In this document: one piece after another, positions 2,527-44,967 of the stretch
Layout: each line of letters starts with the position of its first letter
How positions within the stretch are numbered: position 1 is the first letter of the stretch
Assembly (NCBI GenBank): GCA_944381055.1
Contig: CALWJQ010000097.1
Location: 1 to 64,000, forward strand
DNA from: an uncultured Clostridia bacterium
GTDB taxonomy: Bacteria > Bacillota > Clostridia > Oscillospirales > Butyricicoccaceae
Length of the DNA stretch: 64,000 nt
Direction of reading: 5' to 3'
Notes under the pieces: model-generated
What the model was told of the DNA's origin: nothing
The model's input: only the letters and a program-made list of their open reading frames with translations
The model's database searches: none
Program-made: the position numbers and the translations under genes

Positions 2527-4347
2527 CTACTTCCCCCCGAATTTCTGCTTCATGCGCTGCTGGTTGTTGAGAATCCGCTTGCGGATGCGCAGGTTTTTGG
2601 GCGTGACCTCAATGAGCTCATCGTCTTTGATAAACTCGATACACATTTCAAGGCTCATGATACGCGGCGGGGTCAGGCGCAGCGCCTCGTCAGACCCGCT
2701 GGCGCGCATATTGGTGACATGCTTTTTCTTGCACACGTTGACGGTGATGTCTTCGCTTTTGGGCGACTGTCCGACCACCATGCCCTCGTACACCTGGGTG
2801 CCCGGGGTGATGAACAGAATCCCGCGTTCCTGCGCGTTGTAAAGGCCATAGGTGACGGCTTCGCCCGTTTCAAAAGCGATGAGCGATCCGGTCGGCCGGG
2901 TCGGGATTTCTCCCCTGTACGGCTGGAAGCTGTCGAACACCGAACTCATGATGCCTTCGCCGCGCGTATCGGTCAAAAACTCGTTGCGGTAGCCGAACAG
3001 CCCGCGCGAGGGAATGAGGTATTCGATGCGCATCCGGTCGCCCTGCGGGCTCATCTGCTGCAGCTCGCCCTTTCGCGCGCCCAGCTTTTCCATGACCGCA
3101 CCGACATAATCGGCCGGGACGTCGCAGACAAACCGCTCGACCGGCTCCATCGTGACGCCGTTTTCTTCGTGCAGCAGCACTTTGGGGGCGCCGACCATGA
3201 ACTCGTACCCTTCGCGCCGCATGGTCTCGATGAGAATGGACAAATGCATTTCACCGCGCCCCGCAACACGGAAGCTCTCCGTCGTGTCGGTGTCCTGCAC
3301 ACGCAGCGACACGTCCTTTAACAGCTCGCGCTGCAAGCGTTCGCGCAGATGGCGCGAGGTGACAAACTTGCCTTCGCGCCCGGCAAAGGGGCCGTTGTTG
3401 ACCGAAAAAGTCATTTCAACCGTAGGTTCTGAAATCTTGACAAAGGCCAGAGCCTCAGGGTGCTCGACGTCGCAGATGGTGTCGCCGATAGTAATGTCGG
3501 CAATGCCCGACAGGCTGATGATGTCGCCGGCCTTCGCCTCTTCAATCGGGGTGCGCTTAAGCCCCTCGATCTGGAACAGGTTGACCGCCTTGGCCTTGTA
3601 ATCGGGGTGGTTCTGGTGGTAGTGGGTGACCACGACTTCCTGGTTTTTGCACAGCACGCCGCGCTCGATGCGGCCGATGCAGGTGCGGCCGACATAGTCG
3701 TTGTAGTCGATGGACGACACCAGCATTTGCAGCGGGCCGTCCGGATCGCCTTCGGGCGGATCGATATGGGACAAAATGGTGTCGAACAGCGGCGTCAAAT
3801 CGACCATCGGCCCGCTGGGCGACAGCGACGCCGTCCCGTCGCGTCCGGAGCAGAAAAGAACCGGGCTGTTGAGCTGGTCGTCGCTCGCGTCCAGGCTGAT
3901 GAGCAGATCGAGCACTTCGTCGAGCACCTCGTCGATGCGCGCGTCAGGGCGATCGACCTTGTTGATAACGACGATGACCTTGTGGCCCAGCGCCAGCGCC
4001 TTTTGCAGCACAAACCGGGTCTGGGGCATGGGGCCTTCAGCAGCGTCGACGAGCAGCAGCACACCGTTGACCATTTTCAAAACGCGCTCGACTTCGCCGC
4101 CGAAATCGGCATGGCCCGGCGTATCGACGACATTGATTTTGACGCCCTTGTAATACACCGAAGTGTTTTTCGCCAGAATGGTGATGCCGCGTTCGCGTTC
4201 CAGGTCGCCCGAATCCATCACGCGATCGGCCACCGCCTGATTCTCGCGGAAAACGCCGCTCTGCTTGAGCATCTCATCAACCAGTGTCGTCTTCCCGTGA
4301 TCGACGTGCGCGACAATGGCGATGTTGCGCAAATCGTTTCTGATCAT
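2527..4347 (-). CDS. typA: Ribosome-associated GTPase TypA/BipA
   Basis: 606 residues, normal for TypA. The G domain has AHVDHGKTT (P-loop), the switch DTPGHADFGGE and NKVDRP, followed by EF-Tu domain II-like, EF-G domain III/V-like and the BipA-specific C-terminal regions. TypA binds the 70S/50S ribosome and supports ribosome assembly and translation under stress. I place the start at ATG 4345-4347 with GAGG 8 nt upstream; a TTG two codons earlier is possible. It has its own consensus promoter inside the end of the VanZ-like gene and runs on into the GNAT gene. Confidence 0.95.
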   Translation of the reverse strand: MIRNDLRNIAIVAHVDHGKTTLVDEMLKQSGVFRENQAVADRVMDSGDLERERGITILAKNTSVYYKGVKINVVDTPGHADFGGEVERVLKMVNGVLLLVDAAEGPMPQTRFVLQKALALGHKVIVVINKVDRPDARIDEVLDEVLDLLISLDASDDQLNSPVLFCSGRDGTASLSPSGPMVDLTPLFDTILSHIDPPEGDPDGPLQMLVSSIDYNDYVGRTCIGRIERGVLCKNQEVVVTHYHQNHPDYKAKAVNLFQIEGLKRTPIEEAKAGDIISLSGIADITIGDTICDVEHPEALAFVKISEPTVEMTFSVNNGPFAGREGKFVTSRHLRERLQRELLKDVSLRVQDTDTTESFRVAGRGEMHLSILIETMRREGYEFMVGAPKVLLHEENGVTMEPVERFVCDVPADYVGAVMEKLGARKGELQQMSPQGDRMRIEYLIPSRGLFGYRNEFLTDTRGEGIMSSVFDSFQPYRGEIPTRPTGSLIAFETGEAVTYGLYNAQERGILFITPGTQVYEGMVVGQSPKSEDITVNVCKKKHVTNMRASGSDEALRLTPPRIMSLEMCIEFIKDDELIEVTPKNLRIRKRILNNQQRMKQKFGGK

Positions 4348-39616: not shown

Positions 39617-39638
39617 AAACAGAAATACAGCAAAGTAA

Positions 39639-39797
39639 GATAGCACAACTGCAAATACATTGCAGACAGTCCTGCGGCTGTTCACCGCAGGCCCACCGCC
39701 CGCGCACGCCTGCCCGGGCAGTTCGGCGGATGTGCCTTTCCCCGCCCTCTCAGCCTGCCGGCTCCGGTGGGTACTCATCGTCTCCGCGCCTCTATCA
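39639..39797 (-). promoter_or_regulatory. Lysine riboswitch (L box) aptamer upstream of lysC
   Basis: The minus-strand RNA starts with T-GATAGAGGCGCG then GAGTA, as in L boxes, and contains GGGGAAAGGCACATCCGCCGAA, followed by GGGCCTGCGG hairpin parts and ACTGTC. P1 pairs GATAG at the 5-prime end with CTATC at 39643-39639. High lysine should close the aptamer and favour the downstream terminator, shutting off lysC, dapA, dapB and dapH. The start agrees with the predicted transcription start. Confidence 0.85.
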
Positions 39798-39805
39798 ACG
39801 GCCTT

Positions 39806-41093: not shown

Positions 41094-41501
41094 GTGGAAA
41101 AGAAAGGTTTTTCCGCCCTGGTTCCCCTTGCGGCCGCGCTGATTCTGGAAATCCTGCCCTATGGCGCGGTCTGCAACTTCGCCCGTCCTGCCGAAGACGG
41201 GACCATCGGCCGCTTTCGGGTGTTGTATTCCTATTTTGATCTTGTGCCTTTCGGGTACGCCAATTTCGGCCCTTTTCTCACGGCGATCCTCACCTGCGTC
41301 ATTCTGGTTCTGACCGTCGCCTGCTGCCTGACTGGAAAGCGGAAAATCCTGCCTGCTGCAAAGGCCCTGCTCTGCGCTGCGATCGTTTTGTCTCTGTGCC
41401 CGCTGCTGCTCGGCGCCGACTTTTTTTCCGTTGTCGGCGCGCTGATCACCGCGTCCCTGGGAGCCGGGCTGTTTCTGCTTTCGCGCGCCGGGACTCCCTG
41501 A
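41094..41501 (+). CDS. Hypothetical four-helix membrane protein
   Basis: 135 residues from GTG 41094, chosen for AAAGGAGG 8 nt upstream. It has an N-terminal hydrophobic segment, an extracellular loop (R-P-A-E-D-G-T-I-G-R-F-R-V-L-Y), then three more helices. No family recognised; similar short membrane proteins with Y-F-D-L-V-P-F-G-Y-A occur in Clostridia. It is 52 nt from the M20 gene and may be cotranscribed. Confidence 0.65.
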   Translation: MEKKGFSALVPLAAALILEILPYGAVCNFARPAEDGTIGRFRVLYSYFDLVPFGYANFGPFLTAILTCVILVLTVACCLTGKRKILPAAKALLCAAIVLSLCPLLLGADFFSVVGALITASLGAGLFLLSRAGTP

Positions 41502-41621
41502 TTTCCTTTCAGGCTGATCTGCGATTTCAGTTTTGGCAGAAACCTGACTGCCGTGCCAAAGCTTTCACGGGTTTTCTCTCTTGGTTTCGTCGTGACTGGT
41601 TAGCTTCTTTCCACCTGCGGG

Positions 41622-41656
41622 CAAAAGAAAAGGGCAGCCGATTTTCTCGGCTGCCC
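41622..41656 (-). terminator. Terminator of the sigma/anti-sigma pair
   Basis: Minus-strand 10-bp stem (41656-41647 with 41641-41632), loop of 5, then TTTTCTTTT. Confidence 0.85.
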
Positions 41657-41675
41657 TGGCAGGCGTTATTTATTC

Positions 41676-42287
41676 TTATGAATAATTGGTCGGAAAGCTC
41701 GAAATAATATCTGATTCATCAACCGAAATACCGGAACCATCTCCATTGGTAACAAAATTAAACATATACCCATATTCCGGGTTTCCTGCAAAAAGCGACA
41801 GTTCGCTTTCTGTAAAATAGCCGACAACAACAGTGTAGTATAGTTTTTCGCCTTTTCCTTGATATGCCCAACATTCGGCTGTATAAAGTTTATAGCCCAG
41901 TGAAATGAGCCGTTGATATTCCACAGTTCGTTCCTCATCTGTTAGTTCGCCAGTCTCTTTGAATATATCAAAAGACAGCAGAAATATTACATTTTTCCCA
42001 TTATATTTCTCCCGGGCTGCTCTTACTTCACTTGCAAAGTTTACCTCGCCTGGGTAGGGGACAGCATAACTGCCAGACGAATTCGTATGATATTCGCTGA
42101 TTACACGTCTGCCATCGTAAGTTGTTGGGTTCCAAAAGACGACGCCAACAATCAGCATCAGGCACGCCGCGGCTGCCCCCCATTTTACCCAGACGGGCTT
42201 CTTGGATTTCTTTTTATAATTGAGAGCTTCGTCAATGTACTTGCTGTCCAGCTCGCTCATAGCGTCGGAAAACTTCTTTGCGTTCAT
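41676..42287 (-). CDS. Probable membrane-bound anti-sigma or sigma-associated protein
   Basis: 203 residues. A cytoplasmic N-terminal segment (about 30 residues, D-A-M-S-E-L-D-S-K-Y-I-D-E-A) precedes a single transmembrane helix (W-G-A-A-A-A-C-L-M-L-I-V-G-V-V-F-W) and an extracytoplasmic domain without known family. Similar N-termini are seen in proteins next to ECF sigma genes in Clostridia. Start overlaps the sigma stop by 4 nt, so the two are coupled. Base composition is richer in A/T than its neighbours. Confidence 0.7.
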   Translation of the reverse strand: MNAKKFSDAMSELDSKYIDEALNYKKKSKKPVWVKWGAAAACLMLIVGVVFWNPTTYDGRRVISEYHTNSSGSYAVPYPGEVNFASEVRAAREKYNGKNVIFLLSFDIFKETGELTDEERTVEYQRLISLGYKLYTAECWAYQGKGEKLYYTVVVGYFTESELSLFAGNPEYGYMFNFVTNGDGSGISVDESDIISSFPTNYS

Positions 42288-42844
42288 ACAAATACCTCTC
42301 TTTCAATCAAGTATTGTTTCATCTTTTCGCGGATACGGGTCAGCCGGACGGAGATGTTTTTCTCCGAAAGCCCCATAAATTCGGCTATGTCCTTGTAGCT
42401 GTCGGCAAACCAATAGCGGCGCATGAAGATAACACGGTTTTCGACGGTCAGCGTGTCCAAAAACTCCCCAATGATACGGGCTAACTCTCTGGCTTCCATT
42501 TCGGCCTCTACTGTCTTGGGGTCTGCTATGCAGGCTTCAATTTCCTCCATAGCAATCGTATAGGCACTTCTTCGTTTGGCTGCTTCCTTTCTCCAATAGG
42601 TTTTGAGTGAAATATTCCGAACGATTTTCACAATGTAGCTGAGCAGCGGGTCAGGGTGTACCGGGGGAATGGCGTTCCATGCGCCTAAGTAAGCGTCGTT
42701 GACACATTCCTCTGCGTCCTGCCTGCTTCCTACGATGTTGTACGAGAGGTTGTGGCAGATTTTTCCGTATTTCATGTCCAGTTCCCGGATGGCTTGCTGG
42801 TCACGCTCAAAGAACATTTCTATGATTTTTTCATCGGCTGTCAT
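42284..42844 (-). CDS. ECF-type RNA polymerase sigma factor
   Basis: 186 residues. Region 2 has D-A-E-E-C-V-N-D-A-Y-L-G-A-W-N-A-I and region 4 ends D-I-A-E-F-M-G-L-S-E-K-N-I-S-V-R-L-T-R-I-R, the family helix-turn-helix. It likely switches on a regulon including itself when the partner membrane protein senses a signal. AAAGGAGG is upstream of the start. AT-richer DNA than around it suggests later acquisition. Confidence 0.85.
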   Translation of the reverse strand: MTADEKIIEMFFERDQQAIRELDMKYGKICHNLSYNIVGSRQDAEECVNDAYLGAWNAIPPVHPDPLLSYIVKIVRNISLKTYWRKEAAKRRSAYTIAMEEIEACIADPKTVEAEMEARELARIIGEFLDTLTVENRVIFMRRYWFADSYKDIAEFMGLSEKNISVRLTRIREKMKQYLIEREVFV

Positions 42845-43014
42845 CCCACCGCCTCCTTTCCGGCTTCACCTATATACTACGGTTTTCGCGGCGAATACTA
42901 CATCAAATCCAAAAATTTTTCATTCTGCATCATTGCCGGCTTTCCCTGATTGGTCAAACCGACGGAGTTTGGGCCATCACTGCCATCCTGCACAAGGGGC
43001 CTCGGGGAGCGCGC

Positions 43015-43043
43015 TTGACAGATTCATCTAAATAAACTATAAT
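43015..43043 (+). promoter_or_regulatory. Perfect sigma-A promoter of the selenoprotein gene
   Basis: TTGACA (43015-43020), exactly 17 nt, TATAAT (43038-43043), about 40 nt before the ATG. Confidence 0.9.
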
Positions 43044-43085
43044 TATAGAAACAGTTATTATGAATCCGGATATCAGGAGGCGCTT

Positions 43086-43376
43086 ATGCATAAAGTAGTC
43101 TTGTACAGCAACCCGCACTGAGGGGGCTGCGGACCGGTCAAAGAGGTTCTTTGCCAGAATAACGTCAAATACGCCATTGTCGACATCACGTCCGGCATCA
43201 CGCCGCTGCGGTCGTTTCTGAAAATCCGCGATACGTCAGATACACATGCCGCCGCCCGTGAAAAGCACACCATTGGCCTGCCCACACTGGTGATCGACGA
43301 CGAAATCTTTATCCCCTCGCCCGATCAGACGCAGGAACTGATCGACAAATACGGACTGAAAGACTCTGCCAATTAA
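43086..43376 (+). CDS. Selenocysteine-containing glutaredoxin-like protein (UGA read through at codon 12)
   Basis: 96 residues if TGA 43119-43121 encodes selenocysteine. The frame opens at ATG 43086 (CAGGAGG 5 nt before) and, apart from that UGA, stays open to TAA 43374-43376. The translation reads M-H-K-V-V-L-Y-S-N-P-H-U-G-G-C: the redox motif of a thioredoxin fold with U replacing the first Cys of C-x-x-C. Later G-L-P-T-L-V-I-D-D-E-I-F is the cis-Pro segment of glutaredoxins. A SECIS-like hairpin starts 14 nt after the UGA. Selenocysteine-containing glutaredoxins are known in Clostridia, so this fits. A plain gene call would miss it or begin after the UGA. It needs SelA, SelB, SelC and SelD encoded elsewhere. 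Confidence 0.85.
43136..43155 (+). promoter_or_regulatory. Bacterial SECIS-like stem-loop
   Basis: The RNA GG-U-CAAAG / AGGUU / CUUUG-CC forms a 7-bp stem with a single bulged U (43138) and a loop holding GGU. A bulged U and a GGU-type loop at this distance from UGA are hallmarks of the E. coli fdhF element that SelB recognises. Confidence 0.75.
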
Positions 43377-43381
43377 GCGGC

Positions 43382-43415
43382 AAACGCCTCCGGCCATGCG
43401 GCCGGAGGCGTTTTT
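43382..43415 (+). terminator. Terminator of the selenoprotein gene
   Basis: A 14-bp perfect stem (43382-43395 with 43100+ region 43400-43413) with a 4-nt loop and a T-run. Confidence 0.9.
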
Positions 43416-44570: not shown

Positions 44571-44607
44571 TGTAAAACAGGCGAAAATCCGAGGATTTTC
44601 GCCTGAA
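44571..44607 (-). terminator. Terminator of rnpB
   Basis: Minus-strand stem CAGGCGAAAATCC / GGATTTTCGCCTG followed by TTTTAC, directly after the rnpB 3-prime end. Confidence 0.85.
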
Positions 44608-44608
44608 C

Positions 44609-44967
44609 GCAAGCAAGCCTGTAAGCCGGGTTCTGTTAAAAACAGCCATCTGTCTGGGTCGCGCGTCGCCGCGCGCCTCAAGCCACCCTTTTGGGGAACG
44701 GGCCGAGCAAGCCCTGCGCCATGCGCTGTTCCCGCTTGATGTTGCTTCGGATAGAGTTTACAGGTGCCCATTGTCACCAATGGGTTCAGTGAGCTCTTAC
44801 CTCGCTTTTCCACCCTTACCCCGGCACAGGGCCGAGGCGGTATATTTCTGTTGCACTTGTCCTAAAGTCGCCTTTGGCGGACGTTATCCGCTATCCTGCT
44901 CTGTGAAGCCCGGACTTTCCTCCCACGCAGCCTTACGCTGCGCAGGCGGCTGTTCCGCTTACTTGCC
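44609..44967 (-). ncRNA. rnpB: RNase P RNA (class A)
   Basis: About 359 nt on the minus strand. Universal landmarks are the near-5-prime GAGGAAAGTCCGGGCT, then ACAGAGCAGGATAGCGG, and near the 3-prime end ACAGAACCCGGCTTA. The termini pair as helix P1 (GCAAGTAAGC at 44966-44957 with GCTTGCTTGC at 44618-44609, one mismatch). It is the catalytic RNA that matures tRNA 5-prime ends. Exact ends are estimated to a few nt. Confidence 0.95.

Follow-up and report, generated by a model that had tools for sequence, protein, structure and literature searches.

A single TGA interrupts a 97-codon frame in the window, that is, in the whole 64,000-nucleotide stretch of DNA analysed here, and the question is whether this triplet marks a decayed gene or is read as selenocysteine (Sec). 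A sequence-only reading, made from the letters and their open reading frames, had proposed a hidden gene for a glutaredoxin-like protein with a U-G-G-C active site. The comparative sequence evidence assembled below makes it nearly certain that UGA would be decoded as Sec at codon 12 of an intact glutaredoxin-like gene, by means of a SelB/SECIS-like hairpin. The source organism is a close relative of Candidatus Ventrousia (Clostridia), and its genome was examined as a 2.1-Mb assembly in 98 contigs that is 97% complete.

Organisation of the gene unit

The candidate gene and its signals comprise the following features.

43015–43043, forward strand: sigma-70-type promoter, TTGACA-17-TATAAT, agreeing with the consensus at 12 of 12 positions
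43075–43080, forward strand: Shine-Dalgarno sequence AGGAGG, 5 nt before the ATG, assigned from the sequence
43086–43376, forward strand: predicted Sec glutaredoxin-like gene, 96 aa with a UGGC active site when TGA is read through
43119–43121, forward strand: predicted UGA Sec codon (codon 12), occupied by TGA in 42 distinct homologues and by a Cys codon in 35 others
43128–43130, forward strand: codon of the resolving Cys15, invariant in a 22-sequence alignment
43136–43155, forward strand: bacterial SECIS-like hairpin, GG-U(bulge)-CAAAGA-GGU-UCUUUG-CC, conserved in Sec genes and lost in Cys genes
43382–43413, forward strand: intrinsic terminator, strong, with a 14-pair stem

As the sequence-only reading had it, the frame contains one in-frame TGA and is otherwise open to a natural stop, a TAA that is included in the 97 codons. 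Reading through gives a product of 96 residues in full, MHKVVLYSNPHUGGCGPVKEVLCQNNVKYAIVDITSGITPLRSFLKIRDTSDTHAAAREKHTIGLPTLVIDDEIFIPSPDQTQELIDKYGLKDSAN, with the active site U12-G-G-C15. The promoter, ribosome-binding site and strong terminator of the earlier description were likewise recovered; moreover, the TTGACA and TATAAT hexamers are invariant across three species of the genus, the two congeners being Candidatus Ventrousia excrementavium and a third species. The gene stands alone and would form a monocistronic unit under its own promoter. Conservation of the adjacent genes ends at the level of the genus, and gene neighbourhood was therefore dropped as a clue to function.

Several other elements lie close by in the window. 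Just upstream of the gene, an islet of about 1.5 kb (41488–43006) has been inserted, which contains an ECF-type sigma factor (42284–42844, reverse strand) and an adjacent unassigned protein (41676–42287, reverse strand); in Ca. Ventrousia excrementavium the corresponding site lacks it and the two flanks directly adjoin. A lysine riboswitch (39633–39802, reverse strand) is located upstream of aspartokinase/dapA genes, and a class A RNase P RNA is found at 44606–44965 (reverse strand).

The UGA site and the selenocysteine machinery

Homologues were sought in 197 near relatives and, at the levels of order, class and phylum, in about 400 genomes each, from which 77 distinct homologues were read out, occurring across the Bacillota. 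Codon 12 is TGA in 42 of them and TGC or TGT in the remaining 35, always at the same site, and the Sec form is present in 11 family-level groups. The UGA had been placed at the first Cys of a C-x-x-C motif, and homologues do carry Sec (TGA) or Cys at exactly this codon. On viral contigs, no relatives were found either by profile or by a SECIS/UGA DNA pattern, and a plasmid collection held only distant relatives with less than 35% identity; one of these is a chromosome-sized record of Acetoanaerobium noterae, with Cys at the site.

These data bear on the reading of the locus as a pseudogene, in which a Cys glutaredoxin gene has been inactivated by a change of TGC or TGT to TGA. The triplet is indeed one base away from both Cys codons, and annotation under the standard code would call codon 12 a stop. 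Against this, the identical TGA occupies the same codon in all 42 distinct homologues from the 11 family-level groups, the promoter is conserved, the hairpin is kept only alongside TGA, and purifying selection acts on both sides of the triplet. In comparisons with three congeners, dN/dS after the UGA amounts to 0.03, 0.15 and 0.27, thus the downstream part appears to be translated and constrained, which a pseudogene would not be. Inactivation is accordingly given a vanishingly small probability, and sequence conservation already refutes this reading.

The Sec pathway implied by an in-frame Sec codon is encoded in the source genome, where selA, selB, selC and selD all score above their family cut-offs (4/4). 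The first three lie in a row on one contig (G000:C13:63840-67305), scoring 602 bits (selA), 396 bits (selB) and 71.8 bits (tRNA-Sec); a lack of selA, selB and selC in the genome, which had been named as an observation that would speak for a pseudogene, was thus not encountered, nor was a lack of Cys/Sec homologues aligning through codon 12. The selD gene (G000:C16:2269-3192) itself has an in-frame TGA near the N-terminus (GGUGAKIGPGVL) and is likely a second selenoprotein gene of this genome. Across genomes, selA was detected in 38 of the 41 that have the Sec form versus 7 of the 32 that have the Cys form alone (Fisher p = 4e-10), and in 0 of 7 relatives with neither form. The three Sec-form genomes in which selA was not found are 92%, 88% and 81% complete.

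Two further observations concern the sel region. A second, divergent selA with the start of selB is located on another contig (G000:C87:1-3078) and has the same neighbours as the cluster on C13; contamination by a sister species probably accounts for this contig, the alternative being a second copy. Upstream of selA on C13, a small Cys-containing protein is encoded (positions 3285–3746 of locus L019), which resembles the C-GCAxxG-C-C family.

The same evidence weighs on the possibility that UGA stands for another amino acid (Trp or another recoding), or acts as a truncating or regulatory stop with reinitiation downstream. Nothing specific was found in favour of either. In homologues the alternative residue at the site is always Cys and never Trp, a product of reinitiation would lack the catalytic part of CxxC, and selA, selB, selC and selD are present, with the presence of selA tracking the TGA form. 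We hold these possibilities to be extremely improbable, and decoding as Sec is the reading followed below.

The hairpin after the UGA

In the hairpin, two pairs are followed by a bulged U (43138) and an upper stem of six pairs; the loop of three bases, GGU (43145–43147), starts 22–23 nt after the UGA. According to the published bacterial SECIS model, the upper stem has 4–16 pairs, the distance from UGA to the loop is 16–37 nt and the energy is at most −7.5 kcal/mol (PMC13188914, Fig. 2A). The stem of the window copy (six pairs, or eight with those below the bulge) and its spacing lie within these ranges, and the loop (A-GGU-U) follows the loop rule of the model; its energy of −5.4 kcal/mol alone, or −6.9 kcal/mol with flank, is weaker than the −7.5 kcal/mol of the model. 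An Rfam search over the gene returned no SECIS or other family at the gathering score, and an energy z-score was rejected as evidence on the hairpin, being uninformative (−0.14 for the window copy).

Conservation is close to complete among the 42 Sec sequences, of which 40 have all six pairs of the upper stem, one has five and one has a broken stem; none of the 35 Cys sequences has the complete stem. The loop reads GGT, GGC, GTT, GTG or GTA in 41 of the 42, and the bulged base of the Sec-gene hairpins is U or C. The sequence with the broken hairpin (G918:C136:4172-4414) has TGA at the Sec codon and comes from a genome, 81% complete, in which selA was not found; Sec decoding may have been lost recently here, or the assembly may be incomplete.

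Since the stem overlies the conserved peptide V-K-E-[VF]-L-S, the protein may be a selenoprotein and the hairpin a mere by-product of conserved codons rather than a SECIS. Consistent with such a codon constraint, two homologues with A-W in place of E-[VA] (L026 and L028) form the pairs by chance recoding in 6–15% of cases. However, synonymous recodings seldom keep the stem: with the protein held fixed, all eight pairs arise in 0.45–0.67% of recodings of the window copy, and in 0.005–0.13% for most relatives of other genera, so the protein sequence does not force the hairpin. The initial set of 15 Sec relatives has pairing in 95.8% of cells, and compensation is seen at three of the pairs (G-C/C-G, A-U/C-G and G-C/A-U), where double changes from C-G to G-C, A-U to C-G and G-C to A-U keep the pairing. 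The covariation score is 0.195 versus 0.043 in shuffles, is reached in 0 of 500 shuffles and drops for any column offset of the partner strand. Furthermore, AAA GAG GKT CTT TC persists across families, though the preferred Leu codon of the window is CTG, and the stem is lost in Cys homologues, one of them a tandem paralogue. Codon constraint in place of a SECIS is therefore considered very improbable, and a SECIS-like function of the hairpin is preferred.

The earlier claim of a hairpin with a bulged U and a GGU loop holds in that the structure is present and conserved; it does not hold for the isolated window RNA, the minimum-energy fold of which differs from the SECIS hairpin. The whole region folds at −10.9 kcal/mol in a different structure. 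In the competing fold, which is absent from the three congeners compared, the loop side is taken up by pairing with GGACC, the bases that directly follow the UGA. Folded from the base following the UGA, the RNA forms the SECIS hairpin with a probability of 0.10; leaving out the first 8–12 nt after the UGA raises this to 0.93–0.99. These 8–12 nt would be expected to be unavailable once a ribosome reaches the UGA, and the SECIS hairpin would then take over.

Protein family, predicted function and Sec/Cys interchange

The label "glutaredoxin-like" proved apt, as the window protein (with C for U) passes the Pfam Glutaredoxin model PF00462 with 29.8 bits against a cut-off of 22.9, yet it has an extra helical segment around F-L-K-x-R-D, which follows the second strand and precedes the cis-Pro. 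Positions 12 (Sec/Cys) and 15 (Cys), the cis-Pro P66, and R48 and D49 are invariant in the 22-sequence alignment. The AlphaFold2 model built from this alignment is confident (mean pLDDT 92.8), and the PDB structures closest to it in fold are glutaredoxins (TM of about 0.6–0.65 on the query), with cGrx1 and cGrx2 of Clostridium oremlandii among them; at the sequence level, the PDB entry that the family profile matches best is 7c10 (dithiol cGrx1; E 2e-8). The window protein is a member of the established class of Sec glutaredoxins, in a subgroup with a helix insert of its own.

In UxxC oxidoreductases, Sec attacks the substrate disulfide and Cys resolves. For the present gene, SelA, SelC and SelD would supply selenocysteyl-tRNA(Sec), and SelB carrying it would bind the hairpin right after the UGA and insert Sec at codon 12, as the machinery genes found suggest. 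The product would be a small cytosolic oxidoreductase of the thioredoxin fold, in which, by analogy with the UxxC family mechanism, the selenolate of U12 would attack a target disulfide or an oxidised thiol or selenol, and C15 would resolve the mixed selenosulfide.

The closest characterised counterpart is cGrx1 from Clostridium (Alkaliphilus) oremlandii (PDB 7c10, 7c12, 7c13), which is natively a selenoprotein and has the active site U(C)PxC (PMC7642778). Like the window protein, it is clostridial and combines the thioredoxin fold with a Sec active site; in contrast, it has 84 instead of 96 residues and no counterpart of the F-L-K-x-R-D segment, the profile alignment covering the first half and, weakly, the region of the cis-Pro. 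The enzyme has been proposed to reduce a Sec-MsrA; in the 97% complete source genome MsrA was not found, and it was rejected as a partner. Neither was PF04262, the glutamate-cysteine ligase of classical glutathione synthesis, found there, hence a dependence on glutathione is not implied. Ferredoxin-thioredoxin reductase, hinted at by the fold match 7pwe, was rejected too, as PF02943 was not found in the source genome. With these three missing from the search results, the reductant is more likely of the thioredoxin-reductase type or an acquired thiol; re-reduction would thus probably proceed via a thioredoxin-reductase-type or low-molecular-weight-thiol system rather than via glutathione made by the cell.

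A 2026 inventory of 119 prokaryotic selenoprotein families has glutaredoxin (PF00462, UxxC) as experimentally verified (PMC13188914, Table 1), and the finding therefore adds a member to a known kind of selenoprotein. Shared with this listed family are the Pfam cut-off, the UxxC motif, the N-terminal active site and the invariant cis-Pro; the F-L-K-x-R-D subgroup with the insert helix is not singled out in that table and may already fall under this heading. The UXX-star families 1–3 and Uxx_star (NF041114, NF041211, NF047338, NF041212) are likewise glutaredoxin-like selenoproteins, with weak profile similarity for many members; the window protein scores far below the cut-offs of the two models listing it (19.4 versus 100 and 17.7 versus 66 bits) and is not among the matches of the other two. 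The best NCBIfam match is GlrX_YruB (TIGR02196), which all 22 aligned members match; the window protein scores far below its cut-off (36.3 versus 88.55 bits), and the aligned part of the profile is the shorter of the two, with 60 positions against 72 residues. NCBIfam has no dedicated model for the subgroup.

Chances are about even that these proteins form a distinct, widespread and so far unlisted subfamily, the "F-L-K-x-R-D" glutaredoxins of the Bacillota, marked by a near-invariant SECIS, GAAAGAGKUUCUUUC, that fixes V-K-E-[VF]-L-S, and by repeated Sec/Cys interchange, including tandem pairs. Standard annotation would overlook the present gene or break it in two at the UGA, and a whole set of uncultured Bacillota carries Sec glutaredoxins with a common, easily recognised SECIS sequence, a pattern that could help to find more of them.

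In a phylogeny built from 88 columns of the 77 proteins, in which many forks are weak, the Sec/Cys labels need 5 changes versus about 26 in shuffles. Sec and Cys copies occur in tandem in two genomes, G245 (contig C3, L053/L072) and G045 (contig C157, L040/L030), and the Cys copies of both pairs have lost the intact hairpin; as far as the sequences tell, such pairs would fit a duplication followed by a switch to Cys. This Sec/Cys series with its tandem pairs offers a ready system for asking what selenium buys a glutaredoxin and is suited to the study of SECIS decay after a switch to Cys. In a further genome, two Sec copies lie in tandem (G027:C2).
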